NCBI RefSeq assembly: GCF_038595065.1
Contig: NZ_CP152003.1
Coordinates: forward strand, 3,080,001 to 3,144,000
DNA from: Sutcliffiella sp. FSL R7-0096
Lineage (GTDB): Bacteria; Bacillota; Bacilli; Bacillales; Bacillaceae_I
Reading direction: 5' to 3'
DNA: 64,000 nt
The position numbers and the translations under genes were made by a program. The stretch's first letter is position 1. Every line of letters begins with the position of its first letter. The notes beneath the pieces were generated by a model that saw only the letters and a program-made list of their open reading frames with translations, had not been told where the DNA came from and ran no database searches. This document shows, in pieces, positions 19,699-51,635 of the stretch.

Positions 19699-19879
19699 CT
19701 ATTTTACCTCAAAGATTGCTGCTACTCACTAGTAAAAAGTCGGTAATTGGACTTTTTATTGCTTACTTACTCTAGATTTGCGTGTAGCATATTCCTTATT
19801 GCAGGGAAAAGCGTACGACAGTAGGAATTTAACGGTCGTTTTAAAATACGCAAAAGCAACAAAGTTTACGAAAATAGCT
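19699..19879 (+). repeat. Interspersed TIR repeat, copy A
   Basis: About 181 bp. The left end CTCAAAGATTGCTGCTA and right end AAAGCAACAAAGTTTACG form an imperfect terminal inverted repeat shared with copies B, C and D. Internal elements: hairpin AAAAAGTC-GGTAATTG-GACTTTTT at about 19734-19757, and a conserved GGGAAAAG...ACGACAGTAGGAAT...ACGG tract. Confidence 0.75.
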
Positions 19880-19897
19880 TTACAAAAAGCCTTTAGG

Positions 19898-20185
19898 TCA
19901 TTTTTCAGGTTTCAAAATGGTTCTTTGGACAGGAATGCCTCCCATTGCAACATTTCGTTCTATGAAAATATAGGCACGACCATCAATGATGAATTTTCGA
20001 TTCCCTTGATAACTGACCTTTCTCCCTTGTTTGACTAGTTCATCCTCTATAGCTTTAACATACTCTCTAAAATCCTTATACCTTTTATCAAAATCAATGG
20101 TAATATGGTCTTTTCTGTATCCCATAACCCAATTAAAACCAAACAAGCATAGTCCAAAAATAATTAATAACAAAATTATCTCCAT
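19898..20185 (-). CDS. Small single-pass membrane protein of unknown function
   Basis: 95 aa. Residues 1-22 (MEIILLLIIFGLCLFGFNWV) form a transmembrane segment, followed by RKDHITIDFDKRYKDFREYV and a mixed beta-type domain ending in RAYIFIERNVAMGGIPVQRT. GAGGAAAA precedes the ATG. It looks like a genuine cytosolic-domain membrane protein; I do not recognise the family with confidence. Confidence 0.6.
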   Translation of the reverse strand: MEIILLLIIFGLCLFGFNWVMGYRKDHITIDFDKRYKDFREYVKAIEDELVKQGRKVSYQGNRKFIIDGRAYIFIERNVAMGGIPVQRTILKPEK

Positions 20186-20291
20186 ATCGGTTTTCCTCTT
20201 TGATAAATTTCAATTTATGTTTCTCTCTAAAATTTATACGATTTAAAATATGTTTCGTTTCAAAAAAAAGCAAAAACATTATAAATACTCA

Positions 20292-20326
20292 AAAAAAAGC
20301 ACTACCTCTGCAATAGAAGTAATGCT
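20292..20326 (-). terminator. Terminator after the DoxX gene
   Basis: On the minus strand AGCATTACTTCT pairs with AGAGGTAGTGCT and is followed by eight T, just past the DoxX stop. Confidence 0.85.
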
Positions 20327-20338
20327 CTTTTAAATGTC

Positions 20339-20767
20339 TTATTTTACAATAGCTGCTTTTCCGGTTTCTTTACTTTTTAAAATGACCTGATCAAGAGCAA
20401 ATGCCTTTGAGCCATTCATCACAATAAATAATGCCATTGCTAAAAATGCTAAATCAAGTTCATATCCAGCCATTTGGCCATTTCCTAAAAAGCCAACAGC
20501 AAATTTTACTTTCAGGATAGCTCCAACCATTAGTAGGGCTATCAAACCTGAAACAACTCTACTAAACAAACCAAGAACTAGCGCGATCCCACCAATGATT
20601 TCTAACAATGCAACACCATAAGCAAAAAACCCTGGTAATCCAATGCTGTCAAACCAACCTACTGTATTTTCTATTCCACCTTGAAATTTCGCTAATCCAT
20701 GAACGAAGAATGTCAAACCTAGTACAACTCTTAAAATTAATGTGCCAATTTCATATTTATTTATCAT
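20339..20767 (-). CDS. DoxX family membrane protein (CatD/YfiD-like)
   Basis: 142 aa with four hydrophobic helices. LRVVLGLTFFVHGLAKFQGG and GVALLEIIGGIALVLGLFSR are DoxX signatures. In B. subtilis a DoxX protein (CatD) is encoded with the catechol dioxygenase CatE and regulated by the HxlR-type repressors YodB and CatR in response to quinones. The same gene types occur here: a CatE-like gene at 21516 and a divergent HxlR gene at 22536, with an FMN reductase between. It probably belongs to a thiol/quinone stress cluster. Confidence 0.85.
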   Translation of the reverse strand: MINKYEIGTLILRVVLGLTFFVHGLAKFQGGIENTVGWFDSIGLPGFFAYGVALLEIIGGIALVLGLFSRVVSGLIALLMVGAILKVKFAVGFLGNGQMAGYELDLAFLAMALFIVMNGSKAFALDQVILKSKETGKAAIVK

Positions 20768-20811
20768 TTCAGTTCCTCCAATATATTTTTCTGTTCGTTA
20801 TATGATGTTCG

Positions 20812-21360
20812 TTATCTTAAAGTTTTAAGAGCACCACTCCATGCTACAACTTCTTCAAGCATGGTATTAAGATTATTTAGATGTAGATCTTGTGGTTTAA
20901 ACTCCACTCCATTTACAAAGTCTGTAAATAAACTTAAGGTTGGATGTGTGCGAACATCCGCCACTTTTTGTTCTGCAAGAATTCCTCTAAGGTGTTCAGC
21001 TGCTCGGGCTCCACCAGTTGATCCATAACTCACGATACCAGCCGCTTTGTTATACCAGGCTTCGCGAGCAAAATCAATAGCGTTTTTCAATGCCCCCGTT
21101 ATGCTATGGTTGTATTCCTGAACGATAAAAACAAATCCATCTAAACTTGCCAATTTATCATTCCAAGCTGCAATACCTGGTTCTGCCCCATCGGTTGTTC
21201 CTAAAAACGGTAAATCATAATTTGCAATATCTACGATTTCATAGTTTGCATCTCCACGTCTATCAGCAATTTCTTTCACCCATTCTCCTACTTGAGGACT
21301 TACTCTCCCTTGGCGTGTGCTTCCTAAAATAATCCCTATCTTTAACTTTTCATTTTCCAT
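20812..21360 (-). CDS. NADPH-dependent FMN reductase / quinone reductase-like protein
   Basis: 182-aa flavodoxin-fold enzyme. LKIGIILGSTRQGRVSPQVGEWV is the FMN-phosphate binding loop, VQEYNHSITGALKNAIDF the second FMN motif, and VSYGSTGGARAAEHLR the third. Members reduce FMN, azo dyes or quinones with NADPH. The ATG at 21360 is chosen for the strong AAGGAGGAAGAGGCA before it; another ATG at 21411 with GGTGGTGAG would add 17 residues that are not typical of the family. It lies between the CatE-like and DoxX genes on the same strand, consistent with a quinone-detoxification unit. Confidence 0.85.
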   Translation of the reverse strand: MENEKLKIGIILGSTRQGRVSPQVGEWVKEIADRRGDANYEIVDIANYDLPFLGTTDGAEPGIAAWNDKLASLDGFVFIVQEYNHSITGALKNAIDFAREAWYNKAAGIVSYGSTGGARAAEHLRGILAEQKVADVRTHPTLSLFTDFVNGVEFKPQDLHLNNLNTMLEEVVAWSGALKTLR

Positions 21361-21515
21361 TGCCTCTTCCTCCTTATTTTTATTTGAAAATATTTTATTT
21401 AAAAAACCCATTATTCTCACCACCTAGATGTAAATTTACCAATTCTTTTTTGTTACCTACTTTTCATGCAATTTATTGTGTTTTTCTTTTTTCAATTAGT
21501 TGTTTTTCAAAGCTA

Positions 21516-22367
21516 TTAATTGGTTATTAAGCGAATACGATTACCTGAAGGGTCTATAGTAAAGAATGCACCATTTTCTTCAGATACAGTTGCCTGAATA
21601 TCCTTTAACTGAGATATTATATTATTTTTCTTTTCCTCACTTGAAACCATTAAGGTGAATGATTCAAGTCCAACACTATTAGGAGAAGGTGTAGGGGCGC
21701 CGACTCCATTCCAAGTATTTAAACCAATATGGTGATGGTATTTTCCATCCGCAATAAAAAGTGCCTGGGTACCGAATCGGTTTACAACTTCAAATCCAAG
21801 TCCCTTCATATAAAATTCCTCTGTCTTTTTCAATTCCTTCACATGCAAATGGATATGCCCCATGGCCGTTTCTGCTGGTAAACCTCTCCATGACTTGAGT
21901 TTCTGTGCAGATAAAAGGTCAGGAAAATTAAGTGGATCCACTGTCATTTCAACTTCACCATTAGTCCAATTCCATTCAGAAGGCTCCCGATCAACATAGA
22001 TCTCAATACCGTTTCCATCTGGATCAGTCAGATAGAGCGCTTCACTTACAAGATGGTCAGAGGAACCAAACTTTAAGCCTACTTTCACAAGATGCTGTAC
22101 CATTTTAGCTAAATCCGTTCGTTCAGGCAGCAGGAGTGCAAAGTGATATAATCCCGTCGTTCTGCCTTGTTTTGGAACGACATTCTCTGGTTGTTCTATT
22201 GATAATAATGCTGTTTTTCCATCCGCACTAAAAGTAGCGGACCTCGGAGTTTGTTCCAACACCTTAAAACCAATGATTTCTTTATAAAAAGCGATGGATT
22301 GTTCTAAATTCTGTATCTTTAGGTTTACTTGACCTACAAATGTAATTGGCTCACGATGAAAGTTCAT
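21516..22367 (-). CDS. catE: CatE-like extradiol dioxygenase (VOC family)
   Basis: 283 aa, the same size as B. subtilis CatE (catechol-2,3-dioxygenase). Two vicinal-oxygen-chelate modules are visible: residues about 8-125 (GQVNLKIQNLEQSIAFYKEI... LYLTDPDGNGIEIYVDREPSEW) and about 165-283 (GHIHLHVKELKKTEEFYMKG... KYHHHIGLNTWNG... FFTIDPSGNRIRL). Candidate iron ligands are the His in MGHIHLHV, the His in YHHHIGLNTW and a late acidic residue. The divergent HxlR gene and nearby DoxX gene support the catE name. The catechol substrate is inferred. Confidence 0.75.
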   Translation of the reverse strand: MNFHREPITFVGQVNLKIQNLEQSIAFYKEIIGFKVLEQTPRSATFSADGKTALLSIEQPENVVPKQGRTTGLYHFALLLPERTDLAKMVQHLVKVGLKFGSSDHLVSEALYLTDPDGNGIEIYVDREPSEWNWTNGEVEMTVDPLNFPDLLSAQKLKSWRGLPAETAMGHIHLHVKELKKTEEFYMKGLGFEVVNRFGTQALFIADGKYHHHIGLNTWNGVGAPTPSPNSVGLESFTLMVSSEEKKNNIISQLKDIQATVSEENGAFFTIDPSGNRIRLITN

Positions 22368-22414
22368 TTTTGTACCTCCTAATTGATAAGATATTGAAAC
22401 GCAATTTATTAGTT

Positions 22415-22431
22415 AGTTACTTTATGTAAGT
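22415..22431. promoter_or_regulatory. Candidate operator between catE-like and hxlR genes
   Basis: AGTTAC-TTTAT-GTAAGT is a near-palindrome in the 168-bp divergent promoter region. HxlR-family repressors such as YodB and CatR bind palindromes rich in TAC...GTA. The assignment is by position and symmetry only. Confidence 0.35.
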
Positions 22432-22535
22432 TAGTATATTATTATAATTAAGTGTAGTCAAGTAACTTTTTTATGAAAAATAATTCAATTATCTCTTTTT
22501 GCAGTTTATAATATATGAGTAAGGAGTTGATTTAA

Positions 22536-22844
22536 TTGGATAAGTCGATTTGCCCTAGATTTGAGAAAGCAATGGGTTATTTGAGCCAAAGGTGGACAGG
22601 GCTAATAATTTACCAGCTTCTATCTGGTCCACAGCGTTTTTGCACGATTGAATCTTCCATCGGTGTCAGTGGCAGGGTCCTATCAGAAAGGTTGAAGGAT
22701 TTAGAAAACGAAGGTATTGTAAAACGAGAAGTTTTCCCAGAAACTCCAGTTCGGATCGAGTATTCATTGACTGAAAAAGGGATTGCACTCGAACCTCTCA
22801 TGAAAGAGATGGAAAAATGGTCACAAAACTGGTTAGAAGCATAA
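22536..22844 (+). CDS. HxlR family transcriptional regulator (YodB/CatR-like)
   Basis: 102 aa, one winged-helix HxlR (DUF24) domain: MGYLSQRWTGLIIYQLLSGPQRF, then RVLSERLKDLENEGIVKREV, then IEYSLTEKGIAL. Cys6 (MDKSICPRF) is in the position of the redox-sensing Cys of YodB and CatR. It is divergent from the CatE-like gene and probably represses that cluster until quinones or diamide-like oxidants modify Cys6; a second Cys (FCTIES) is at about 36. The start is TTG at 22536, 9 nt after AAGGAG. Confidence 0.88.
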   Translation: MDKSICPRFEKAMGYLSQRWTGLIIYQLLSGPQRFCTIESSIGVSGRVLSERLKDLENEGIVKREVFPETPVRIEYSLTEKGIALEPLMKEMEKWSQNWLEA

Positions 22845-22972
22845 AAGTAATAATTATAGTTGATATATTTCATAGGATACATTTGAGGAATTTACTTCCC
22901 TTTTGTATCCTTGTTATTTTTGTCTTTTTTAAGAGATAGTATCTGATAGTAATTTTAAATAAATCCTTGCAC

Positions 22973-23004
22973 AAAAATAACCGCCTAAAAGGGCGGTTAT
23001 TTTT
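22973..23004. terminator. Bidirectional terminator between hxlR and SRPBCC genes
   Basis: AAAAATAACCGCC / GGGCGGTTATTTTT with a short loop: a strong symmetric hairpin with A-run and T-run, fitting the convergent genes on both sides. Confidence 0.9.
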
Positions 23005-23095
23005 GTGTACATTCTTTCGCATATAAGTTATTTGCTGCGCAGTAAAAGAAAAGTTCCCTAAAATTCTCACAATCCATCCTTTTTGTTAAAAATGT

Positions 23096-23551
23096 TCATT
23101 CCATATTTTCAGCAATATTTTTTAGTTCCACTGCACGAGAAACAATGAATGCTCTCATATACTTTTCTAAGAACAACTTGTCGGCTATAACGCCAATTAG
23201 GCCTAATGGCGATTTGTACTGGAATTTATCGATTATAATTGTTCCACCTGCTTCTTCGATAAATTGATGGATATGAGTAAATGAATGGAAAGCTCCTTTC
23301 ACCATGATATCTACAAATTGATAAGGGGGTTCCATAAATACAACTTTAGCTGTCAACCTTTGCTTGATTCCAAAGTGAATTGCTTCCCAGGTAACAGTAT
23401 CTCCTTCTTCTAATAACCCTTCTGTCACTCCACCAACAGCTCTTTCCTTTGTTTTAGTGGTCGTTTGAGTATGGATATCTACATTCCTTGCTAAGTTAAA
23501 ACATATTTCAACAGGAGCTTTAATAAATTGTTGGTGTTCAATCACAGGCAT
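23096..23551 (-). CDS. SRPBCC (START-like) family protein
   Basis: 151 aa. The pattern MPVIEHQQFIKAPVEICFNL, LLEEGDTVTWEAIHFGIKQRLTAK, and IIDKFQYKSPLGLIGVIADKLFLEKYMRAFI is typical of SRPBCC/polyketide-cyclase-like proteins that hold hydrophobic ligands in a helix-grip pocket. The function is unknown. The ATG at 23551 follows AAAGGAGAAT; an upstream in-frame ATG lacks a site. It follows the P-loop kinase gene by 60 nt on the same strand, so the two may share a transcript. Confidence 0.8.
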   Translation of the reverse strand: MPVIEHQQFIKAPVEICFNLARNVDIHTQTTTKTKERAVGGVTEGLLEEGDTVTWEAIHFGIKQRLTAKVVFMEPPYQFVDIMVKGAFHSFTHIHQFIEEAGGTIIIDKFQYKSPLGLIGVIADKLFLEKYMRAFIVSRAVELKNIAENME

Positions 23552-23611
23552 TTTAGATTCTCCTTTTACAACCACTTCTAACATAATGATGTCTTTTGTT
23601 GGATTTAATTC

Positions 23612-24145
23612 TTAATGTTCAATTACAATCTCACCTTCATCTGTAGGTACCTCAAATCCATTAAGGAAGAAAGTTAACATTTCTTCTGTAATGGGGAAGG
23701 CAGCATTTGCATCAAAACGTTGGCTTCGTGTCTTGAGTCGTTTTCGCAAATCATTAGGATGAACTTTCAAATATATAAGTTTCCATTTCCCTCCTCCCTT
23801 TTCTATGAGGTTTTTATATTTCGTTCTTTTTGAACGTTGCCAAAAACTAAAGTCCACTACCACATGTTGTTTTTCTTGAATCAACTTTACTAGTTGTTTC
23901 CGCAACTTACTTTCTGCATCTTTTTTGTAATCCTCATACTTTTCTGTTGGATAGTCTATTCCATAACGACCATTGATAGCCCAAATTTCTTCATCAATCG
24001 AAAGACGTATAAAACCTGCTTCTTCTAATTGTTGAGCGAATGTCGTTTTTCCAGAACCTGCTACACCGCACATCATTACAACTAATGAATGGAAATTGTC
24101 TCGATCACTAATAATCAGGTTATCTATGATGGACTTTTCAAACAA
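23612..24145 (-). CDS. P-loop ATPase / kinase-like protein (AAA_33 type)
   Basis: 177 aa. Walker A is MMCGVAGSGKTTFAQQLEEAG (about 24-44), a Walker B-like VVVDFSFWQRSKR is at about 95-107, and an Arg-rich lid LRKRLKTRSQRF at about 133-144. This is the layout of small kinases related to zeta toxins and to antibiotic or nucleotide phosphotransferases. The substrate is unknown. The ATG at 24145 lies after GGGGG. No antitoxin partner is evident, so a toxin role is not proposed. Confidence 0.78.
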   Translation of the reverse strand: MFEKSIIDNLIISDRDNFHSLVVMMCGVAGSGKTTFAQQLEEAGFIRLSIDEEIWAINGRYGIDYPTEKYEDYKKDAESKLRKQLVKLIQEKQHVVVDFSFWQRSKRTKYKNLIEKGGGKWKLIYLKVHPNDLRKRLKTRSQRFDANAAFPITEEMLTFFLNGFEVPTDEGEIVIEH

Positions 24146-24737
24146 CAGTATTCCCCCTTTTTATTTGCAGGGTAAATCTTCAATGGAGTGTATGGAGACA
24201 AAACTTATACTAAAATCGAACTTTTGATTGGTTAGTCCTAAATCCTCCATATGAAGACACATACATTCTATGTTAATCCTCCTGATTTAACCGTTTGCCG
24301 TTCGATCCTATTTTTGGAGTTTGCTATACAATACTTTGAACAATCACCACAAACCAAAAATGCTTTAAAAATATCAACCTTGTTTCATATTCATTGGCTG
24401 TCTTTCTTTGTTTCCTCAAGGAACCTCACAGCTTCTTCTAGGTGCAATTTCAATATTCATTCCTATATTAACTCCCTATTTGTACAGTGAATTCCTTACC
24501 CAATACCTACTACCAATTATTTCATGATTTAAAAATTTCTACAATAAGTTATTCTTATCCTGACCTAATAAAAACGAGCGCTGATCCTTGTCACAGGATT
24601 GCGCCCGGTCTCTGAAAAAGAAAATCATATCTCTTTGTCCGCTAAATCATGTAAAATATAGACATGAAAAAAGCTCTTTGATGGAAGATCCTTTCAAGCT
24701 GAATATTTAACTATCGTCACCCTTAACGACATAGATA
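24146..24737. other. Intergenic stretch without a supported gene
   Basis: About 590 bp. The only structure I can support is the terminator at 24578-24604. Short frames on either strand lack ribosome sites and resemble no family. Confidence 0.5.
24578..24604 (-). terminator. Terminator after the CBO0543-type gene
   Basis: On the minus strand GCGCAATCCTG pairs with CAAGGATCAGCGC, followed by TCGTTTTTATT. It is similar in shape and sequence to the terminator at 12680-12706. Confidence 0.6.
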
Positions 24738-25217
24738 TTACTTTCCCTTAGGGTTTGAATGGAATATATCCTCTTGCCACTTGTAGTAACCATAAATAAC
24801 TATGGAAAAAAAGACAAATAGGATAAAACGGCCCCATGGAGTAATGTTTACTAGCTCATAAATGCCTAATACTTCTTGAAACATATAATGTATAGGGAAA
24901 ACTGCAAACAAGAAATCTATGATGATATTAGTAACAAGATACTTTCGAAAATTTCCGTAAGTATAATAAAAAACCCAAAAAGTTATTACTGGGAAAGCAC
25001 CAAATACACCAGATACAAATAAGGGTTTTAACCACGGAATAAACGTTTCATTAATTACCCAATGTTTTTGATTACTAGCGACCACGTTATAAATGATCAT
25101 TAAAAAGGAGGCAAATATAGCTGCAGGCATAAAACGTTTTATATATTTCTTCTCAACAAAAAATAAGGTGAACCATGGAGCAATTAATATTATCCATAAT
25201 ATTATTTTAATTAACAA
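24738..25217 (-). CDS. CBO0543 family multi-pass membrane protein
   Basis: About 159 aa with roughly five hydrophobic segments. ILWIILIAPWFTLFFVEKKYIKRFMPAAIF and the conserved WGRFILFVFF followed by YGYYKWQEDIF identify the CBO0543 family, widespread in spore-forming Firmicutes and of unknown function. The start is uncertain: the TTG at 25217 has AAGAGGG at good spacing, whereas the TTG at 25226 is too close to it. It is transcribed alone. Confidence 0.7.
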   Translation of the reverse strand: MLIKIILWIILIAPWFTLFFVEKKYIKRFMPAAIFASFLMIIYNVVASNQKHWVINETFIPWLKPLFVSGVFGAFPVITFWVFYYTYGNFRKYLVTNIIIDFLFAVFPIHYMFQEVLGIYELVNITPWGRFILFVFFSIVIYGYYKWQEDIFHSNPKGK

Positions 25218-25291
25218 AGTAATCAACCCTCTTATACTGCTAATTATTTTTATTATTTCATTCCCATCAATTATTATTCTTCAGTCAAAAA

Positions 25292-25320
25292 GACGCATTC
25301 CATATATCAGGAAATGCGTC
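25292..25320 (-). terminator. Terminator downstream of the VOC gene at 25497
   Basis: On the minus strand GACGCATTTCC and GGAATGCGTC pair, then TTTTTGACTG follows. It lies about 180 nt after the VOC stop. Confidence 0.75.
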
Positions 25321-25496
25321 CAATAGCGTAATAGGAAGTCTATTCAATATTCAAAGAGAAACATAACTTGGAGTACCTTGTTTCCTGTATGCTAACACTT
25401 TTTGACATGTCCACCAAGGCATTTTCACCAATAGTAATATGACCAACACTTTGTTGTAAAACCAAGGATACAGTTCTAGTCTTTCTTTTTATTATC

Positions 25497-25907
25497 TTAC
25501 CAGTTTGGATTCCAGACAACTTCCCATAAATGTCCATCTGGATCTTGGAAGTATCCAGAGTATCCCCCCCAAAAAGTGTCGTGTGATGGGACTGTTATAA
25601 TGGCACCAGCCTGTTTTGCCTGTTCCATTACCTTATCAACTTCCTCTTTACTTCCTACATTGTGTCCTATAGTAAATTCGGTTGGACTTGATACGCTCTT
25701 ATTAATTTTCGCATCATGTGCTATGTCTTCACGATTCCAAATGGCAAGCTTCAAGCCTGCTTGTAAGTCAAAAAATGCAACGGCTCCATGCTCAAACTCT
25801 TTGCCTATTATACCTTCCGTATGAAATCCCAGCCCGTCCCGATAGAACTCTAATGATTTTTCCAAATCGTCTACACCCAATGTAATTAAAGTAATTCTTG
25901 GTTTCAT
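25497..25907 (-). CDS. VOC/glyoxalase family protein
   Basis: 136 aa single vicinal-oxygen-chelate domain: MKPRITLITLGVDDLEKSLE, FYRDGLGFHTEG, and the C-terminal YFQDPDGHLWEVVWNPNW. This subfamily is common in Bacilli and usually unassigned; some members give antibiotic or metabolite resistance. The ATG at 25907 follows AGGAGGAGTC. Copy B of the interspersed repeat begins 25 nt upstream of the start, so its promoter must lie inside or beyond the repeat. Confidence 0.82.
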   Translation of the reverse strand: MKPRITLITLGVDDLEKSLEFYRDGLGFHTEGIIGKEFEHGAVAFFDLQAGLKLAIWNREDIAHDAKINKSVSSPTEFTIGHNVGSKEEVDKVMEQAKQAGAIITVPSHDTFWGGYSGYFQDPDGHLWEVVWNPNW

Positions 25908-25932
25908 AAATTGATGACTCCTCCTCATGAAA

Positions 25933-26117
25933 AAGGCTATTTTCGTAAACTTCGTTGCTTTTACGTATTTATAAACGGACCGTTATATTCCTTACTTTCG
26001 TGCTCTTTTCTCTGTAATACTGAATATGCTACGTGCATGTCTAGAGTAAGAAAGCAGTAAAAAGTCCAATTGCCGACTTTTTACCGTGAATAGCAACAAT
26101 CTTTGAGAAAAGAGCCT
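25933..26117 (-). repeat. Interspersed TIR repeat, copy B (opposite orientation)
   Basis: 185 bp. Ends AGGCTATTTTCGTAAACTTC and the complement of TAGCAACAATCTTTGAGAAA are the terminal inverted repeat. The internal hairpin AGTAAAAAGTCCAATTGCCG (26056-26075) and following ACTTTTTAC, plus the ACCGTTATATTCCTTACTTT tract, match copies A, C and D when reversed. Confidence 0.8.
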
Positions 26118-26443
26118 AAAAAAACTTCCCAGGTCTTAAGTATGAATAGATTGCTTTGCTTTTTCAAGGTAGTCTACCGGATAGACCAGTCAATAATTAT
26201 CGCAGAAAACACCCAATAATAGCAGTGTGATAATGGATTATACACTGAATAAATAGCCCTAAGTATGCTAAAACAACCTAATAGAAAAAGATTTAAAGGA
26301 CAACCTTTCCACTTATTTATCCAATGTAGTAGATATCAACTAGAAGATAATGGTAATTGCCCTTCTAAATTAAGTACATATATTCATTGGTGCAATCGGT
26401 TGTAAAGAGGGGCTTTCATATAGAATTTGATTAAATGAAGAAA
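26118..26443. other. Intergenic stretch without a supported gene
   Basis: About 325 bp between repeat copy B and the tyrZ terminator. No ribosome site with a credible frame, and no hairpin I would call. Confidence 0.5.
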
Positions 26444-26472
26444 AGCGTTAACTCATAAACTGAATTAACGCT
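26444..26472 (-). terminator. Terminator after tyrZ
   Basis: AGCGTTAA and TTAACGCT arms; on the minus strand the hairpin is followed by TTTTCTTCATTT, 19 nt past the tyrZ stop. Confidence 0.8.
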
Positions 26473-26490
26473 CCCCTTCAAATTCGATAA

Positions 26491-27705: not shown

Positions 27706-27711
27706 ACTAAC

Positions 27712-28045
27712 ATCTCCTTGGAATATTATTTCTAATATTGCAAGCTCTATAAGAACCAAAGGAATAAAAAAACGCCCTTTTGGATTAACCAAAAGGACGA
27801 TTCATCTCGCGTTACCACCTTTAATTCATAAGCAATTCACATTGCCTACCTTTGAAAGTACAGTCATATGACGATACTCTAGCACATGATTACGGGTGCT
27901 TCACCGGTGTAGCCTACTAAGTCATGACTTTTCGGTACACAGCTCCAAGATGTATTCACAATCGTTCAACATGCACCTCTCATCAGCCGGTAACTTTCTG
28001 TCTGTTTACATGATTGCTACTCTTTCTTATCATAGCCTTTGTTCT
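27712..28045 (-). promoter_or_regulatory. T-box leader, tyrosine specifier, upstream of tyrZ
   Basis: The minus strand shows AGTAGC, the ACAGAAAGTTACCGGCTGATG-type Stem I, a specifier TAC (complement of 27952-27954) in GTGAATACATCTTGGAGC, and the T-box motif AAAGGTGGTAACGCGAG at about 27805-27822. A terminator at 27771-27799 (CGTCCTTTTGG / CCAAAAGGGCG, then TTTTTTT) completes it. Uncharged tRNA-Tyr should relieve termination. Confidence 0.95.
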
Positions 28046-28129
28046 TATACTCCGAAATGTTTAAAACAAATCTTCGTTATGCAGATATTATTAGTTATTT
28101 TATCGGTTTATTTTAAAATGTCAATAGAT

Positions 28130-31850: not shown

Positions 31851-32020
31851 AAAAAAACCTCTCCAAGAAAGAGAGGTTTGAGCGCTAAATGAAATCAAAT
31901 AGACTTGTCCCTCTCTTATCTTTCAAAACATCACTGTTTTGCAGGATTTAGCACCAATTCCAAATGGAACGGTTGCTGGGCGTCATAGGGCCAGTCCCTC
32001 TGCCACTCTTGATAAGAGAT
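31851..32020 (-). promoter_or_regulatory. SAM (S-box, SAM-I) riboswitch with terminator
   Basis: The minus strand reads CTTATCAAGAGTGGCAGAGG, GACTGGCCCTATGACGCCCAGCAACC, then TGGTGCTAAATCC and GATAAGAGAG, the conserved SAM-I core. A terminator at 31851-31881 (AAACCTCTCTTTCTTGGAGAGG followed by T-run) is the expression platform. High SAM should switch the ABC transporter operon off. Confidence 0.96.
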
Positions 32021-43905: not shown

Positions 43906-45353
43906 TGCTGATTCCCCCTTGTTGCGTCATCTGGACTCGTGGATTCGTTCCTTGTTTTGTAAAATTGAACAGGTGCCCTTAAGAAGGATTTCACTACTTC
44001 TTTCAGTTTTACAGGTGCAAGGGAACCAAAATAGGGAGCACCAAAAGAAGTCAATGTAGAAAAATAAAACACGGTTAAAATGAAGCCCAACACAATACCG
44101 AATAACCCAAAAAATGTACTCAATAAAATAACGGAAAAGCGAATGATGGTGATAGCTGAACTTAATGATTGGTTAACTAATGTAAAAGATGCGATATAGG
44201 TGATGGCAGCAACAACCAACATGGTCGGAGACGTCAATCCAGCTCTGATCGCAGCATCCCCGACAATTAGTCCTCCAAGCACGGCTACAGTTTGTCCAAT
44301 AGCTCTGGGAAGCCGTACACCAGCTTCATTGAAAAGCTCAAAGAGGAACAAAATGATAAACATTTCAATGGGTGCAGAAAGTGGCAAACCAAATCGTGAG
44401 ACAGAAATAGTGGCAACAAGCAGATATGGAATTTGTTCAATATTAAAAGAAGAAAAGGCGATCCATAAACCTGGTAAAAAACCGGAAACCATGATCCCAA
44501 TCATCCTAATCAACCGCTCGACCGAAACAAAGGCAAAATTCATATAGGTATCTTCAGGTGATTTTGTTTGAAGAAGTAAATTGACCGGAGCAAATGATGC
44601 TGTCGGATTTCCATCCACTAATAAAGCAAAACGCCCCTGGTTTAATATCTGAACCACAAAATCCGGTCTTCCTGTAAAATCCATAGTGGGAAAGACAGAA
44701 AACGGTCGATCTCGAACAGTGGATTCCAATTCATAGGCACTGGTCAGGATATCTAATTCCACATTGTTTAATTTCTTTCGTATTTCCTCCAAGACCTTTT
44801 TGTCTATAACATCATCAAGGTAGAGCAAAGCTACTTTCGTTTTACTTCTTTTTCCAATCGTAAATTTCTCCAAGCATAGCGAAGGGGTATGCAGTCTCCT
44901 TCTGATTAAAGAAATATTGGTTCTTATATCCTCAACAAACCCATCTTTAGGTCCACGGATTGAAGTTTCAAGAGCAGATTCCTCAGGTTGGCGCTTAGGA
45001 ATTTCTCCAGCTTTCATACTTAAAAGGCTTTTCTCTATGTAAAAAATCACATCTCCATCAAAAAGCAAAGAAGCCACATCTTCCAACGATTTGGAGGTGA
45101 CCTCTTGCACTTGAAATAGAGTCTGCAGATGTACTTTGACGGAGGTTTCCTTACACTCGCTAAGCTTGGGTAAGATATATTGATTTAAATACTGAAGGTC
45201 GACGAGGCTATCTATATATAGAAGTTCAAAGGTTTCTGAATCTGTACTATGTTTATTAAAAACAACATCCTGGCTATGACTAAATTGAGACTTAAGTTGT
45301 TCAACTTTGTCATGGATTCTATGGTTATTATCCTGGCTTATTGTATTTTCCAT
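43902..45353 (-). CDS. gerA: GerA family germinant receptor A subunit
   Basis: 483 aa. A large N-terminal cytosolic domain (about 1-245; VAYLDGVADKKVLEEV-type helices) is followed by the conserved RPDFVVQILNQGRFALLVDGNPTASFAP segment and 4-5 membrane helices (about 285-430), with ATISVSRFGLPLSAPIEMFIILFLFELFNEAGVRLPRAIG. This is the A subunit (GerAA/SpoVAF relatives). It is preceded by the B subunit and its start overlaps that stop by 26 nt. The receptor senses nutrients; the germinant is unknown. Confidence 0.92.
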   Translation of the reverse strand: MENTISQDNNHRIHDKVEQLKSQFSHSQDVVFNKHSTDSETFELLYIDSLVDLQYLNQYILPKLSECKETSVKVHLQTLFQVQEVTSKSLEDVASLLFDGDVIFYIEKSLLSMKAGEIPKRQPEESALETSIRGPKDGFVEDIRTNISLIRRRLHTPSLCLEKFTIGKRSKTKVALLYLDDVIDKKVLEEIRKKLNNVELDILTSAYELESTVRDRPFSVFPTMDFTGRPDFVVQILNQGRFALLVDGNPTASFAPVNLLLQTKSPEDTYMNFAFVSVERLIRMIGIMVSGFLPGLWIAFSSFNIEQIPYLLVATISVSRFGLPLSAPIEMFIILFLFELFNEAGVRLPRAIGQTVAVLGGLIVGDAAIRAGLTSPTMLVVAAITYIASFTLVNQSLSSAITIIRFSVILLSTFFGLFGIVLGFILTVFYFSTLTSFGAPYFGSLAPVKLKEVVKSFLRAPVQFYKTRNESTSPDDATRGNQQ

Positions 45354-46464
45354 ATGATTCCTCTCTTTTCCTCATCACAATTATCAGTAAGGCTGATATT
45401 AGTATTTGAAAAAGAAAAAACGCCATACATGCTGGTAAAAAATAACGATAGATAAACTCATAGAAATAAAAAGTTTCCACTTCCATCCACATTACCCCGA
45501 AAAAAATCAGGTATATCCCTCCCACTAATATCGGGTTCAACTTATAATGTTTTTTCTTTTTGGTGAGGAATGTAGCAGCAAGGTAAATGAATAATCCGAT
45601 TCTTATGATGGCACCGCTAAGCCATTGATAAAGAGCAAAAAAGTCCAGATGTGAAATATACTCACCAATCTTTAACACCCTCCATTGTTCATAGGCTGGA
45701 TAGCGAAAAAAAGCGGATTCTACTGGTCCAAATTCCATGATGGCAGCAGTCAGTGGACCAAGGATTAAACCCGTCAATATGGTAAGCAGGATGAAGAGTT
45801 GATGGAACTTTATCGGAGATTGTGAATATGGTTGCAGTAAAACGACAATATAGATTTCAAGCAGCCCCGATAAAGTATAAATAACCCCTTTGAATACAGG
45901 CATGTAGCCTTCACTCAACAGTGGAAATAGTAGGCTTGGCTCTTTTAAGGTGGTATTGGTGATAGCAATGAAAATACCAAAAAGCATTACTAACGGAAGT
46001 AAAAATCCACTAGAAATAGCCATATATTTAATGCCGCCAAGTGTAACAATGAAACACACCAAAATCATAATGAAATTAATCATCATAACAGATGCATCTG
46101 ATAAGAAATATGCATTCAGCCAAATCATTAAATCTCGTAATGTGATGTAGGCACCCATGAAAAGAAATAGAACGACCGGGAAAGATAATATAGCGGAGGC
46201 TAATTTGCCAAGACGTTTTTCAACCATCGGAAAGAACCCTTCATCAGAGCTGTTTTTGGCTATAAAATAAACCAACCATAAAAAGATGATGGCTATGGGG
46301 TAGGCAATGATTACACTTAACCAACTGTCCCTTCCCGCAGCATTCAAAAGGTTCGGGATTAGGATTACGTGGTTCAGTAAACCTGTTGATAATACCACCA
46401 TCATGAACAGCTGTCTTGGAATTAGGATTTTCGTGACGTTTTGCATAGGCATCTCCAGCTTCAT
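45328..46464 (-). CDS. gerB: GerB-type endospore germination permease
   Basis: 378 aa with ten predicted membrane helices, an APC-superfamily fold. Signatures: VTKILIPRQLFMMVVLSTGLLNHVILIP, YPIAIIFLWLVYFIAKNS, and GLFIYLAATFLTKKKKHYK. The B subunit probably binds the germinant. It is the first gene of this operon, so the order is B-A-C on the transcript rather than the common A-B-C. Ribosome site and start: ATG at 46464 in GAAGCTGGAGATGCC; the start is not fully certain. Confidence 0.88.
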   Translation of the reverse strand: MKLEMPMQNVTKILIPRQLFMMVVLSTGLLNHVILIPNLLNAAGRDSWLSVIIAYPIAIIFLWLVYFIAKNSSDEGFFPMVEKRLGKLASAILSFPVVLFLFMGAYITLRDLMIWLNAYFLSDASVMMINFIMILVCFIVTLGGIKYMAISSGFLLPLVMLFGIFIAITNTTLKEPSLLFPLLSEGYMPVFKGVIYTLSGLLEIYIVVLLQPYSQSPIKFHQLFILLTILTGLILGPLTAAIMEFGPVESAFFRYPAYEQWRVLKIGEYISHLDFFALYQWLSGAIIRIGLFIYLAATFLTKKKKHYKLNPILVGGIYLIFFGVMWMEVETFYFYEFIYRYFLPACMAFFLFQILISALLIIVMRKREESYGKYNKPG

Positions 46465-46532
46465 TAAAGTATGTTTATCTTCACCTATATTTGATAAATT
46501 ATGCCATTTTTTATCTGGATTATGAAACAGAA

Positions 46533-46772
46533 AGGCTCTTTTCTCAAAGATTGTTGCTATCCTCTAGTAAAAAGTCGGCAGTTGGACTTTTTACTAGAAA
46601 AGTCGGCAGTTGGACTTTTTACTAGAAAAGTCGGCAGTTGGACTTTTCACTGATTAGAAACTTTAAAAAATGCAGTAATAAATTTCGTGCTACAGGGAAA
46701 AGAGCACGATAATAACGAATATAACGGTTATTTTATAAGTACCTAAAAGCAACAAAGTTTACGAAAAGAGCT
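46533..46772 (+). repeat. Interspersed TIR repeat, copy C (internal hairpin tripled)
   Basis: 240 bp. Ends GGCTCTTTTCTCAAAGATTG and AAAGTTTACGAAAAGAGC are inverted. The hairpin unit GTCGGCAGTTGGAC with AAAA/TTTT arms occurs three times in tandem (about 46568-46650), which explains the extra length. The 3' half (GGGAAAAGAGCACGATAAT...ATATAACGGTTATTTTATA) matches copies A, B and D. Confidence 0.85.
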
Positions 46773-46780
46773 AATAGAAA

Positions 46781-46818
46781 AAAACGAGAAGATCCCTCTA
46801 AGGGTTCCTTCTCGTTTT
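46781..46818 (-). terminator. Terminator after nrdJ
   Basis: AAAACGAGAAGGAACCCT / AGGGATCTTCTCGTTTT on the minus strand, followed by T-rich sequence. Confidence 0.85.
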
Positions 46819-46828
46819 ATGATCTATC

Positions 46829-49396
46829 TTATAATCCGCATTTCAACTGTGCACCACAGTCTGTGCATGTATTACATCCACCGATTTCTTTTACTGTACC
46901 AACACGGCAAACAGGGCATGTGTTCCCTACTTCTGATCCGTATTGAACATTGGTCGAGCGCAAATCGTTGATTGTTTCCACAAGTACGACCGGCTTCTTT
47001 ACTACATCTTCCATTTGAATCTGCTCGCCTTCGTCCATGGTGTTTTCTTCGGCTTTCAGGGTTAGGACTTGGGAGTCACGGCTTCCATCCACATAGACGG
47101 TACCACCTTTTGCTCCACCTTTGTAGAGGCGTTCGTACACTTTTTTCACTTGATCCACTGTATATCCTTTTGGCGCATTAACCGTTTTGGAAATGGAGCT
47201 GTCAATCCAGTTTTGGATGATGCATTGGACATCGGCGTGTGCTTCAGGAGCGAGTTCCATTGCAGAGATGAACCAGTTTGGAAGGTTCTCCGCATCTGCT
47301 TCTGGGTTCGCATCCAAGTATTCTTGAACGATGTCCGCTTTGACTTCAATGAACTTCCCTAGACGTCCACTGCGGAAGTAAGAGAAGGAGAAGTACGGTT
47401 CTAGACCTGTTGATACGCCCACCATTGTTCCAGTAGATCCAGTTGGAGCCACCGTTAATAGGTGAGAGTTACGAATACCTGAAGTCATGATGCCTTCTTT
47501 GATATCTTCCGGCATTTTGCCCATGAAGCCTGTTTTTGTGAATGCTTCACGTAGGCGATTTGTCTCTTCTACTGTTGCACCCTCTAAGAACGGGAAGCTT
47601 CCTTTTTCTTTTCCAAGTTCCACTGAAGCACGATATGCAGTAACCGCAATCGTTTCAAATACTTTATCTACAAGCTCGTTGCCTTTTTCAGAACCGTATT
47701 CTGTTTCACAATAGATTAGAAGATCGTGAAGGCCCATTACTCCAAGTCCAACACGGCGCTCTCCTAATGCTTGCTTTTTATTTTCCTCCAAGAAGTATGG
47801 CGTCGCATCGATGACGTTATCTTGCATTCTTACGCCGACTTCTACTGTTTGTTTCAACTTTTCAAAGTTTACTGTTTTGGTTTCCTTGTCCGCAAATTGA
47901 GCAAGGTTGACTGCTGCCAAGTTGCAGACAGAAAATGGTGCGAGGGGTTGTTCCCCACATGGGTTGGTTGCTACGACCTTTTGTCCGTATGCTTTTGCAT
48001 TTGTCATATCGTTGGCATTGTCGATGAAGAAAATGCCCGGCTCTGCTGAATATGTCGCACAGATATTGACTAAGTTCCAAAGCTCTTTGGCTTTAATTTT
48101 TCTGTATACTCTCACCTTGTGTCCTTGCTTTTCCCATTCACGAACATCTCCAACTTCTGACCATTGCTCATTGTATAGGGCCATTTCATCTTTATCATAT
48201 GCTTCCACATCAGGGAAACGAAGATCGAAGTCTGCATCGTTCTCAACAGCTTCCATAAATTCTTTTGTGAGCGTAATGGAAATATTGGCACCTGTCAGGA
48301 ATTCTGGGTTATGAACCGTGTACGTTCCGCCCACTTTAAGCTTCTGCTCTGCATCTTTTATGATTGCTTCTGTAAATCCGCCGTATCCAGGGATGTGCTT
48401 GAAGTTTGTAACAGATTGGTACATGGTGATTTCCTGATCTGTCAATGGTGTAAACTTCAGCTTATCCTCTGCCGCTTTTTTGATGCTTTCGTCATTTGTA
48501 TTTTCAATTAGGTAGCGAAGAATTCTAGGGTTTTGCATTTTGGAAATGATGAATTCTACGATATCAGGATGCCAGTCTGCTAGCATGATCATTTGAGCTC
48601 CACGTCTTGATCCACCTTGTTCAACAAGATGAGTCAACTTTGCAATGTCGTCCAACCAGGAGACACTACCAGAGGATTTACCGTTAACCCCTCTTGCAAG
48701 GGCGTTTCGTGGTCGAAGCGTTGATCCATTTGTACCAACCCCACCACCGCGACTCATGATTTCCATCACTTGTTTACGATGTTCGGATATTCCTTCACGG
48801 GAATCCTGTACGAACGGCATCACATAACAGTTAAAGTATGTTACATCTGTGTCTGCCCCAGCTCCGTATAGCACACGTCCTGCTGGTACAAAGTTCATGT
48901 TCACCAGTTCATGATAGAACTTTTCGAACCATTCCTGACGCTTCTCTTCCGTCGTTTCTACCGCTGCCAACCCTTTCGCGTTACGTTTGGCAATTTGCTC
49001 GTAGAAGACTTCAAGTGGCTTTTCAATAACATCTAAGGAACGGACGACAACTCCAGTTTCAGCTTCACCTTGCTTTGTCAAAACTCCACGATACTCTTCC
49101 TCAATTAGTACAGAAGCTTTTTTGGTAGACCAGTCTATGTCTTGTATGTAACCAAGACCTCTTGCAGGGAATTTTGGGTCTTCTTTAATCGTTAGTACAA
49201 CAAAATCTCCAGCTGTAAGCGTTACTTTCTCGGTATCTTTAAATGCGTAACGATCGAGCATGACCAGGCGGGAAACACCTTTATGTGTGGTGGTCATGTC
49301 CTCTGTAATGGGGTGTACTTGAGGAAACAAGCCGATGTCCTTGTTCAAGCGTTCTACATCAATTTTTAATTTGGATTCATTAATTGCGATCGTCAT
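46829..49396 (-). CDS. nrdJ: Adenosylcobalamin-dependent ribonucleotide reductase, class II
   Basis: 855 aa. It makes deoxyribonucleotides using a B12-derived radical. The active-site region is seen in VTYFNCYVMPFVQDSREGI, MEIMSRGGGVGTNGSTLRPRN, and ATNPCGEQPLAPFSVCNLAAVNL with the NPCGE radical/redox Cys, then LTVAPTGSTGTMVGVSTGLEP. A C-terminal CPVCR...CNTCTDCGAQLKCG zinc-type Cys tail is typical of NrdJ. No class I nrdEF is nearby. B. subtilis lacks this enzyme, so it is an insertion relative to that genome. Candidate NrdR boxes lie upstream. Confidence 0.95.
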   Translation of the reverse strand: MTIAINESKLKIDVERLNKDIGLFPQVHPITEDMTTTHKGVSRLVMLDRYAFKDTEKVTLTAGDFVVLTIKEDPKFPARGLGYIQDIDWSTKKASVLIEEEYRGVLTKQGEAETGVVVRSLDVIEKPLEVFYEQIAKRNAKGLAAVETTEEKRQEWFEKFYHELVNMNFVPAGRVLYGAGADTDVTYFNCYVMPFVQDSREGISEHRKQVMEIMSRGGGVGTNGSTLRPRNALARGVNGKSSGSVSWLDDIAKLTHLVEQGGSRRGAQMIMLADWHPDIVEFIISKMQNPRILRYLIENTNDESIKKAAEDKLKFTPLTDQEITMYQSVTNFKHIPGYGGFTEAIIKDAEQKLKVGGTYTVHNPEFLTGANISITLTKEFMEAVENDADFDLRFPDVEAYDKDEMALYNEQWSEVGDVREWEKQGHKVRVYRKIKAKELWNLVNICATYSAEPGIFFIDNANDMTNAKAYGQKVVATNPCGEQPLAPFSVCNLAAVNLAQFADKETKTVNFEKLKQTVEVGVRMQDNVIDATPYFLEENKKQALGERRVGLGVMGLHDLLIYCETEYGSEKGNELVDKVFETIAVTAYRASVELGKEKGSFPFLEGATVEETNRLREAFTKTGFMGKMPEDIKEGIMTSGIRNSHLLTVAPTGSTGTMVGVSTGLEPYFSFSYFRSGRLGKFIEVKADIVQEYLDANPEADAENLPNWFISAMELAPEAHADVQCIIQNWIDSSISKTVNAPKGYTVDQVKKVYERLYKGGAKGGTVYVDGSRDSQVLTLKAEENTMDEGEQIQMEDVVKKPVVLVETINDLRSTNVQYGSEVGNTCPVCRVGTVKEIGGCNTCTDCGAQLKCGL

Positions 49397-49491
49397 TATT
49401 ACAACTCCTCTAAAACTAGTAGTTCTACCAAATATTACTTCTGTAAAATTTGTTTGTACAGATAAGGTATCATATCTGCCAATAAAATATC

Positions 49492-49536
49492 AACATATAG
49501 TATTTAAAATATTTTCGACACTACTATATATTGATT
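49492..49536 (-). promoter_or_regulatory. Candidate pair of NrdR boxes upstream of nrdJ
   Basis: AACATATAGTATTT at 49492-49505 and ACTACTATATATTGAT at about 49521-49535 resemble the NrdR box (ACACTATATATAGTGT-like). Their centres are about 31 bp apart, the spacing usual for tandem NrdR boxes, and they lie about 100-140 nt upstream of nrdJ. NrdR represses ribonucleotide reductase genes when dATP is high. Confidence 0.5.
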
Positions 49537-49806
49537 TTCTGCGAAAGAAATCTAAATTTGTCAAATTGTAAAAGCGTCAAATCAGAGAGGAAATTCAAGA
49601 GAAACGAAGATTACATTCTATTTTCGAAGCATAATGACTTTTTTTGTCGCTTGCGCATTTTTACGAAATATAGCAAGCCTACTGTATCAACGTTTTGAGA
49701 AAATCCTCCCTATTTGGCGAAAAATATTTTTTTATTTTCCATTTTTGACTTTTACATATATAGTCGACTCTTTACACTACCCTACTACATATAGTGCAAA
49801 ACAAAA

Positions 49807-49835
49807 AGATAACGAGAATTTATTCCTCGTTATCT
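49807..49835. terminator. Terminator-like hairpin, left copy of a near-identical pair
   Basis: AGATAACGAGAA / TTCCTCGTTATCT arms with a TTTA loop. It is 28/29 identical to the hairpin at 50046-50074. The two lie on either side of GC-rich repeat copy 2. Confidence 0.75.
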
Positions 49836-49880
49836 CAGACTGTTGACCAACTATAAACTAGTTAGGTTATCTGTTGGAAG

Positions 49881-50010
49881 AGTTGATCTTCGTTGCAGGA
49901 GCTAAGCTATCCGCGGGCAGTCCGGAAGCCTCCTCGGGCTACGCCCTGCGGGGTCTTCCATGTCCTTTCCTCCCGAAGGAGTCTTCGCACCTTCCACTGC
50001 GATCAACTAG
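49881..50010. repeat. GC-rich palindromic interspersed repeat, copy 2
   Basis: About 130 bp bounded by AGTTGATC and GATCAACT, with interior GAAGCCTCCTCGGGCTACGCC-type and CCGAAGGAGTCTTCGC tracts as in copies 1 and 3. Confidence 0.8.
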
Positions 50011-50045
50011 AGAATTTCTTTATTTTAACCTTTGTCTACATACTG

Positions 50046-50074
50046 AGATAACGAGAAGTTATTCCTCGTTATCT
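50046..50074. terminator. Terminator of lipM, right copy of a near-identical pair
   Basis: AGATAACGAGAAG / TTATTCCTCGTTATCT hairpin overlapping the lipM stop codon. Differs by one base from the hairpin at 49807-49835. Confidence 0.8.
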
Positions 50075-50905
50075 TTTATAATTCCACTCGTCTGTGGAAT
50101 ATTTCTTTTCCATGATTGCATGTACTTCAGCCAACTCTGCTCCCGTCAACTCATGTGGTTCAAGCGTGATATTTAAGCCTTTTTCAAATCCCATATAAAA
50201 CGCCTTTTTTGCTTCCTCCATGGTGACTGGGATTTCGCGAAGGGCATTGATTGCCACTGCTTTATTTTTGAAGTTCTTCTGCATCCGTTCCTTCACTCGT
50301 TCACTCGGGTAGTTGAACAGGCTAAAAAGTAAATCCTCATCAATATCCAGTAGAATGGAACCGTGCTGCAGGATAACACCTTTTTGACGGGTCTGCGCAC
50401 TGCCGGCAACCTTCCTTCCCTCGACTACAAGTTCATACCAGGATGGTGCATCAAAACATACGGAAGAACGAGGGTTCTTTAACCCTTGCTTTTCCTCTTC
50501 TGTTCTTGGAATCGCAAAGTATGCATCAAGTCCAAGCGCCTTGAATCCTTCCAAGATACCTTCTGAAATCACCCGGTATGCTTCTGTAACCGTCTGGGGC
50601 ATTTCTGGATGTTCTTCAGATACGATGACACTATATGTCAGTTCCTTGTCATGAAGGACGCCTCGTCCACCTGTTGGTCTCCTTACAAAACCTAGACCTA
50701 ACTCTCGTACGCGTTCCATGTTGATTTCTTTTTCTGCTTTTTGAAAATAGCCAACAGATAAAGTAGGAGGGTTCCAACCGTAAAATCGAATGGTGGGTGG
50801 AATCTTGCCTTCACTGTGCCACTCTAATAACGCTTCATCAAGCGCCATATTAAATGCAGGAGATTGATCCTTAGAATCAATGAACCTCCAGATTTCTTTG
50901 GTCAT
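50069..50905 (-). CDS. lipM: Octanoyl-[GcvH]:protein N-octanoyltransferase-type lipoate assembly enzyme (octanoyltransferase)
   Basis: 278 aa. LipM moves octanoate from acyl carrier protein to GcvH, the first step of lipoate assembly. The nucleophile Cys150 is in [15 protein letters not shown] at the same number as in B. subtilis Lip[21 protein letters not shown] and [23 protein letters not shown] are the ligase-fold motifs. The ATG at 50905 follows GAGGTACATA; the longer frame is non-coding. Its proximity to the gcv genes is functional: the glycine cleavage system needs lipoylated GcvH. Confidence 0.93.
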
Positions 50906-51076
50906 ATTATGTACCTCATTTACTTCTATATGATAGATTAGTCTACCAAAACTCCCATTTGATTTCAAAGTTAAAGCTTGGTATTTTTTATTGTGAATAG
51001 TAGAAAAGGATGACATTTCTCTTAAGCTTTTATATAATATACTTTGGTAGAAAAAGAAAAAGAGGGGTTGTCTAGT

Positions 51077-51457
51077 TTGGCTTTGTACGTAACATTAGGA
51101 ATCTTGGCAGCATTTATCGTCTATTCAGTGATCATGTTCATTTACCAACGTAAAATTCTAACAACCTTAACGGAAGAAGAATTTCGCGCTGGTTATCGTA
51201 AAGCGCAGCTGATTGATGTCCGTGAGCCGAAAGAGTACGAAGGCGGGCACATCCTTGGCGCAAGAAACATTCCTTTGTCTCAAATGAAAATGAGAATTAG
51301 AGAGGTACGCCAAGACCAACCAGTCTACATTTATTGCCAGAACACCATGCGCAGTGGCCGTGCAGCTCAAATGTTAAAGCGTAAAGGCTACACCCAGCTT
51401 TATCAACTTAAAGGTGGATTCAAGCGCTGGGGCGGTAAAATTAGAACGAAGAACTAA
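51077..51457 (+). CDS. yqhL: Rhodanese-like domain membrane protein
   Basis: 126 aa. One N-terminal transmembrane helix ([23 protein letters not shown]) is followed by a rhodanese domain with [24 protein letters not shown] and active-site Cys in [17 protein letters not shown]. The loop CQNTMRSG fits persulfide-carrying or sulfurtransferase use. Position next to lipM matches B. subtilis yqhL. The TTG at 51077 follows GAGGGG; an ATG upstream at 51044 has no site. Confidence 0.88.
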
Positions 51458-51460
51458 TAG

Positions 51461-51635
51461 AGCTCTTTTCTCAAACTTTGTTACTAGTAAAAAGTTGGCA
51501 ATTGGACTTTTTACAGCATAAATTCACTAAAATTGGCATGTAAGCTGTTTGGGAAAACCGAGAAAAGAGCACGACAGCTAGGAATATACGGTTAGACCAA
51601 TCATGCGAAAAAGCAACATCGTATGCGAGTATAGC
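51461..51635 (+). repeat. Interspersed TIR repeat, copy D
   Basis: 175 bp, beginning AGCTCTTTTCTCAAACTTTG two bases after the yqhL stop and ending near CAACATCGTATGCGAGTATA. It has the AAAAAGTTGGCAATTGGACT hairpin followed by TTTTA and the GAGAAAAGAGCACGACAGCT tract. The right end is the most diverged of the four copies. Confidence 0.75.

Follow-up and report, generated by a model that had tools for sequence, protein, structure and literature searches.

Insertion sequences of the IS1595 family (PF12762/NF033547) usually generate 8-bp target-site duplications, and GG termini are given for the related eukaryotic Merlin elements (excerpts of PMC8101967). MITEAba12, a miniature inverted-repeat transposable element (MITE), is short and non-coding, with inverted ends and no preferred orientation (excerpts of PMC6382973), and the bcr1–bcr18 repeats of Bacillus cereus, a member of the Bacillaceae, measure 100–400 bp and occur in many copies, up to 130 for bcr1 (excerpts of PMC6542083). 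This report concerns a repeat family with four copies in a 64,000-nt stretch (hereafter the window) of the genome of Sutcliffiella sp. FSL R7-0096 (G000), a 4.9-Mb single contig. The repeats are very probably MITEs of the IS1595 group that were moved in trans, are now orphans in this genome and possibly hold a cis-acting folded core. MITE interiors are usually taken as passive filler; here a folded core is kept through the genus and partly beyond it, which raises the question whether a non-autonomous element may carry a cis-acting RNA or DNA structure of its own.

Architecture and Size of the Family

A sequence-only reading of the window had reported four non-coding copies with inverted ends, an internal hairpin and a conserved tract, and all four are present. 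Only the start of copy A was misplaced (at 19699): in five relatives (G001, G002, G003, G013, and G014) the host sequence runs through position 19707, with no copy at that junction, so that positions 19699–19707 are host sequence and copy A occupies 19708–19879 (+ strand), its left end lacking the outermost 9 nt. Copy B (25935–26116, – strand) is full length and shows no recognisable flanking duplication (5/8 positions matching by eye). Copy C (46534–46772, +), flanked by AACAGAAA and AATAGAAA, is also full length and owes its extra length to a 28-bp hairpin unit present 2.9 times (46570–46651, +). Copy D (51461–51636, +) directly follows a yqhL-like open reading frame (ORF; 51044–51457) and precedes a hairpin that looks terminator-like by eye. 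The bounds of copies B, C, and D, slightly adjusted here, are approximate.

The consensus element is about 183 bp long and is delimited by imperfect inverted repeats of about 28 bp (GGCTCTTTTCTCAAAGATTGTTGCTA on the left, GCAACAAAGTTTACGAAAAnAGCC on the right). Between them lie a hairpin, P2, of the form AGTAAAAAGTC-GGCAATTG-GACTTTTTACT, with an 8-nt GGnnnnnG-type loop that starts some 44 nt in from the left tip, and a conserved tract, GGGAAAAGAGCACGACAG, near position 108. Direct reading finds the ends, the hairpin, and the GGGAAAAGAGCACGA-type tract in every one of the four copies. P2 lies at 19731–19760 (+) in copy A and at 51487–51514 (+) in copy D, as placed by sequence reading and alignment; in copy B it reads CGGTAAAAAGTC-GGCAATTG-GACTTTTTACTG (26055–26086, –), where it is also terminator-like in a scan and backed by covariation. 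The earlier statement that no gene lies inside the repeats holds broadly: in 42 of 47 G000 copies, no ORF of 80 or more amino acids (aa) overlaps the element by more than 30 nt when ORFs are called simply and without mutual overlap, and no ORF common to several of these 47 copies was seen. Copy A is an exception, with an 86-aa ORF that starts inside it (ORF listing).

BLAST with copy A retrieves at least 46 matches in G000 (E up to 1.2e-4, scoring having covered the best 40 of 173 candidates), many more than chance would give. A covariance model based on 55 copies from 15 genomes (R1) finds at least 150, every one with E ≤ 9e-10; this figure is a lower bound, because all 150 scored candidates matched. 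At about 180 bp each, 150 copies make up 0.55% of the genome. BLAST and R1 alike also detect the family in each of the 15 further Sutcliffiella genomes searched. Among full-length matches from these relatives, 48 of 54 measure 181–185 bp, the rest being 168–173 bp long or carrying extra hairpin units. The median pair among 36 aligned copies is 79% alike. Two G000 copies that are 99.5% alike have different flanking duplications, which indicates some recent movement.

The family extends outside Sutcliffiella. With R1 at E up to 1e-4, and among the 150 best candidates of each genome, at least 148 matches were obtained in G046, 69 in G043, 61 in G040, 38 in G020, 24 in G044, and 2 in G016 (each a minimum). 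Across the order, at E up to 1e-6 and with the best 8 candidates per genome, at least 54 of 299 genomes and at least 21 of 116 genera contain a match, the hairpin and the conserved block described below not both being present in all of them. Left unannotated, a family of this size will mislead anyone looking in Sutcliffiella and its relatives for small RNAs, promoters, or terminators.

Evidence for Mobility

The sequence-only reading had favoured a MITE dependent on a transposase located elsewhere, and had proposed to look for further copies, target-site duplications, empty sites, autonomous elements with the same ends, and covariation in the hairpin. Each of these was found, the empty sites at copies C and D and the transposase-bearing elements with ends that are similar; together the family, the duplications, the empty sites, and the transposase-bearing elements with similar ends support the MITE reading. 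In a set of 63 clean-ended copies (30 from G000 and 33 from relatives), the 8-bp flanks are identical in 32 and match at 7 or 8 positions in 46, compared with 1.3 and 4.8%, respectively, for shuffled flanks. The length of the duplication is specific: for the 30 G000 copies an exact match is obtained 16 times at 8 bp, once each at 7 and 9 bp, and never at 5, 6, or 10 bp. In one set of 60 matches, 9 were left out as partial. Insertions lie in AT-rich intergenic DNA.

Comparison of orthologous regions gives the same picture at two of the window loci. S. horikoshii biET1 (L066) has an empty site C, and the intergenic stretch there is wholly different in L068, L069, and L072. Six relatives (L066, L068, L069, L071, L072, and L107) have a precisely empty site D; L074 and L075 have no element there, L070 is filled, and L067 retains a short remnant. 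Copy D is thus shared with the more distant L070 and precisely absent from the closer L066, a pattern that could come from a precise loss, from strain-to-strain exchange, or from several insertions into one site. The other two loci are less favourable to the MITE reading: at site A the right flank is not contiguous in the five relatives named above, so this is not a clean empty site, and at site B the relatives align on the tyrS side or the VOC side and never across.

Copies have also inserted into the left end of other copies, producing head-to-tail pairs at L037, L046, and L048. In G010 (L201, 239–800) three copies stand in tandem, repeating every 191 bp (183 + 8), and this array may have arisen by serial insertion or by amplification between duplications. 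The mobility of the family is well supported by these observations.

A Candidate Partner Transposase

Searched against plasmids, copy B aligned over just 29–34 nt of its left end, in four records. One of them, plasmid unnamed2 of Niallia sp. Man26, holds a 1765-bp element (L133, 5009–6773) with identical 8-bp flanks, TTTTTAAA, and with annotations for an IS1595 family transposase and, as passenger, a DinB-family gene. Against NF033547 the transposase scores 206.6 bits (cut-off 75) and against PF12762 54.9 bits (cut-off 27); the score of its zinc ribbon, 21.8, falls short of the Pfam cut-off of 25.4. Used as a query, it finds matches in 23 of 61 genomes (E up to 1e-8), and open genes of full or nearly full length are present in G022, G016, G015 (two), G052, G046, and G045. 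The elements in G022, G016, and G015 have ends that share the MITE pattern, with 8-bp flanks matching by eye at 7, 8, and 8 positions. Intact IS1595 transposases thus lie between similar ends, with 8-bp duplications, in other Bacillaceae. Compared with the ends of six IS1595 elements or relics, the MITE ends are identical at 20–28 of 28 positions (one N taken as a match), while the best of 2000 random 28-mers reaches 17. On this likeness of sequence, the affinity of the ends to IS1595 is well supported.

Several related structures carry such ends. On the Rossellomorea plasmid L131 (5006–5566) and the Mesobacillus plasmid L132 (5002–5571) they enclose a small hypothetical ORF and no transposase, with duplications matching by eye at 8/8 and 7/8 positions; these cargo-only cassettes resemble mobile insertion cassettes. 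A left end is found on the Parageobacillus plasmid L130, and another lies among small hypothetical genes of Bacillus phage 010DV004 (L134, 4001–4035), where the sole opposite end seen is poor (6/20 positions mismatched, at 6366). Three Bacillus phage records matched, and the one opened is a Nitunavirus. The neighbourhoods of 20 partial matches in relatives (L110–L129) showed only short elements and no transposase-bearing one.

Three observations count against a MITE of the IS1595 group with a folded core. In G000 and in 14 of the 15 other Sutcliffiella genomes the search turned up no intact IS1595 transposase, G000 having just a stop-bearing relic with 45 matched residues (C1:2467626). The elements of G015, the sole one of the 16 genus genomes with intact genes, carry GCCTG in their ends at the place of GGCTC in the MITEs. 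Because of these two points, the enzyme that moved the copies is still a putative one. In addition, the conserved block is absent inside all six IS1595 elements or relics examined, so that a role of the core in transposition is conjectural. It might then be argued that the likeness of the ends is superficial and that a transposase of another family does the work. Duplications of 8 bp are known from other transposase families too, and ISL3, the alternative family checked, which the tips had suggested, has matches in 2 of the 16 genus genomes; the lack of an intact IS1595 gene in G000 points the same way. However, G000 has no ISL3 match, such ends were not seen in inverted repeats at two ISL3 loci, and IS1595 elements do carry similar ends, which makes this explanation very improbable and led to ISL3 being dropped as the partner.

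A Conserved Interior

In an alignment of 55 copies from 15 genomes, the commonest base has a mean share of 0.973 in the block (columns 122–135). The left and right tips reach 0.961 and 0.924 and the hairpin 0.868, as against 0.567 and 0.714 for linkers 1 and 2. The hairpin and the block keep nearly fixed places while the linkers change. That the linkers have been largely rewritten and the core kept suggests selection on more than the ends. The opposite explanation is that the interior is a neutral relic, whose similarity is due to recent lineage-specific master copies and whose hairpin covariation is due to self-correction of palindromes. Copies within one genome do form subfamilies, as this explanation expects; the contrast between linker 1 and the block over 15 genomes tells against it.

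The block, GAAAAGAGCACGA, is complementary to the left tip, and this pairing is referred to as P1. It qualifies the earlier description of the inverted ends: these are present, but internal GAAAAGAGC pairs better with the left tip (98.2% of cells) than the right end does (89.2% of cells over both helices, mainly owing to a C-C mismatch in 49/55). The left tip can pair with the block or with the right end, not with both, and the choice made by RNAalifold between them depends on the scoring. The block is found as GAAAAGAGC or GAAAAGATGC in 52 of the 55 Sutcliffiella copies. In copies of other lineages it is found in 32 of 41, against 0.05 expected from shuffled interiors, a count biased towards the block, since most of these copies were found with R1, which itself contains hairpin and block. 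None of the seven copies with a different, GC-rich repeat between their ends has it. Among copies found by their ends alone and lacking this GC-rich cargo, L078 reads GAAAAGATGCC and L100 reads GAAAAGAGCTGC at the block.

These variants bear on what the block does. It could be a third, enhancer-like site for the transposase, or the remnant of an older right end, instead of the partner of the left tip; the form in G010 and G043, CGAAAAGAGC, resembles the right tip, and P1 is without covariation, since the left tip hardly varies. Conversely, the block lacks the inner GCAACAA part of the ends, and the GAAAAGATGCC form of G040, G083, G078, and Metabacillus litoralis departs from the tip and still pairs with GGCTCTTTTC by way of one bulged base. 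On balance such a third site or older end is rather unlikely. The missing covariation also counts against P1 itself.

The evidence for the hairpin is of a different kind. In the 55 copies, 92.5% of its cells are paired, and 29 cells carry a double change, compared with 10.7 in shuffled alignments (0 of 500 shuffles reaching the observed value). A cross-lineage set was assembled from 70 of 77 copies, giving 62 distinct sequences from 21 genomes, of which 13 are Sutcliffiella genomes; six copies were skipped by the loop rule and one because its tip was not recognised. As the rule fixes GG at the start of the loop, these two bases are no result. In this set 96.8% of cells are paired, with 77 double-change cells against 22.6 (0 of 1000 shuffles) and 16 pair types against 12.8 (9 of 1000). 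Sliding one arm by 1–3 positions lowers the pairing to 44–61%. Hairpins with a different stem at nearly the same place occur in G043, G046, G273, G230, G100, G129, G156, and G219; that of G043 folds better than shuffles, which keep base composition only here and for the block counts (z –2.2 to –3.8).

Other measures are less favourable to a maintained hairpin. The number of pairs with a double change is 5 against 3.0 in the 55 copies (18 of 500 shuffles) and 6 against 4.8 across lineages (175 of 1000), and the pair types in the 55 copies number 14 against 13.4 (223 of 500). The hairpin predicted for G046 has no stability beyond that of shuffles (z 0.2 to 0.9). Folding of 10 copies (4 from G044, 4 from G040, and 2 from G020) showed no P2, and the hairpin is accordingly less widespread than the block. 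Inverted repeats may also correct themselves by template switching during replication, and this could mimic the covariation of the hairpin. Such homogenisation, and the measures that stay within the shuffled range, are what the neutral explanation can draw on; the block, however, is not palindromic and lies beyond the reach of self-correction. A wholly neutral interior is therefore considered improbable.

The sequence-only reading had allowed for a transcribed RNA as an alternative to a MITE. The covariation strengthens the case for a structured nucleic acid, which complements the MITE reading and does not replace it. A stronger version holds that the core is a structured RNA, either a MITE-borne non-coding RNA or a signal that shapes transcripts, such as a weak terminator, transposition being only its route of spread. 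It can point to the covarying hairpin at its fixed position in the cross-lineage set, to the retention of the block within Sutcliffiella, to the better-than-shuffled folding of copies B and C (z –3.0 on the model strand, and –6.6), to the terminator-like P2 of copy B (1 found, 0.2 expected), and to the tandem amplification of the hairpin in copy C. Against it, the opposite strand of copy B folds better still (z –4.3), and promoter matches are weak in the one copy scanned, copy B. Rfam 15 gives five matches in the window, all outside the four copies, and ten at 8 loci with copies of relatives (E up to 5), all under the gathering score. Orientation relative to the neighbouring genes is unbiased, with 16, 11, 10, and 9 of 46 copies in the four arrangements (1 of 47 copies having no neighbour). 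This distribution speaks against any set-direction role of the repeats for neighbouring genes, and a cis-regulatory leader of fixed orientation, also considered, is unsupported by it. A structured RNA that travels by transposition is thus less likely than not.

Between like ends, other interiors exist. In Metabacillus and other genera such ends enclose a GC-rich, hairpin-forming repeat of the GACTCCTGCGGGA...GAGGAGGCTCAC...CCGCGGAAAGCG type (L080, 10412–10611; L081, 1295–1514; L111, 3473–3655 and 6288–6531; L112, 3242–3474; L221; L227; L281), and Rfam has no match at the loci of L080, L081, L111, and L112. G208 has seven R1 matches of near-equal score among its best 8 candidates. Two of its loci (L279 and L280) hold elements of 185–186 bp with like ends, identical 8-bp flanks, and a strongly palindromic interior without the block; the G208 elements are apparently another MITE subfamily.

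A Possible Mechanism

For the IS1595-group MITE with a folded core, the following sequence of events may be envisaged. An IS1595 transposase supplied from elsewhere would bind the ends and move the element in trans. Its source would either have been lost from G000, leaving the relic, or come and go with other DNA, and for this reason the copies would be orphans at present. With less certainty, P2 and the block may form a cis-acting folded core, in RNA or in single-stranded DNA, kept because it aids the spread of the element or makes its insertions tolerable. The retention of a non-palindromic block and a covarying hairpin while the linkers changed indicates that the core probably helps spread or survival. 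Since the block pairs with the left tip, it is proposed to compete with pairing between both ends in transcripts, or single strands, that traverse the element; this competition might limit long inverted-repeat structures or expose the ends at the right time.

A more general proposal can be put forward tentatively, as one more apt to fail than to hold. IS1595-type ends across the Bacillaceae would carry an undescribed module, made up of a GGnnnnnG-loop hairpin and a block that pairs with the left tip, acting as an RNA or single-stranded DNA switch that controls end pairing and hence transposition or read-through transcripts. If this is true, a supposed junk MITE would be a maintained functional unit present in hundreds of copies.

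Other Features of the Window

The gene at 50069–51016 has its closest named records in S. horikoshii biET1 (97% amino-acid identity) and DSM 8719 (98%), within a collection that may omit G000's own records. Two T-box leaders, an S-adenosylmethionine (SAM) riboswitch, and a tandem glycine riboswitch lie at 5957–6223, 27790–28042, 31913–32018, and 56939–57134 (all –), and are ordinary.

Comparison With Known Systems

No description of the element was met in the literature searched, which took in few subscription papers and had ISfinder outside its range. The BOX elements of Streptococcus pneumoniae are likewise modular, with an internal module in varying number; they belong to another host and are not known to share the sequence. 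The bcr repeats of B. cereus resemble the present family in length, copy number, and occurrence in Bacillaceae, but their mobility is tied to a TTTAT motif (excerpts of PMC6542083), whereas varied 8-bp duplications and IS1595-type ends are found here. For that motif bcr1, considered for its size and host, was dropped; the searches with copy B matched no B. cereus record among plasmids (4 records matched) or phages (3 records), and the matches covered the left end only, in other organisms. MITEAba12 is comparable in being short, non-coding, inverted at its ends, and without preferred orientation; its copies, however, hardly differ, and only weak predicted structure is reported for them in the excerpts of PMC6382973, while in the Sutcliffiella family diverged lineages keep a folded core. 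With IS1595 itself the elements share the 8-bp duplications of PMC8101967 (as excerpted) and most or all positions of the ends; unlike it, those of the window are without a transposase, and the six IS1595 elements or relics are without the block. These comparisons suggest that what is new here is a family of MITEs with IS1595-type ends that keeps one folded core across lineages, which is unusual for such elements.

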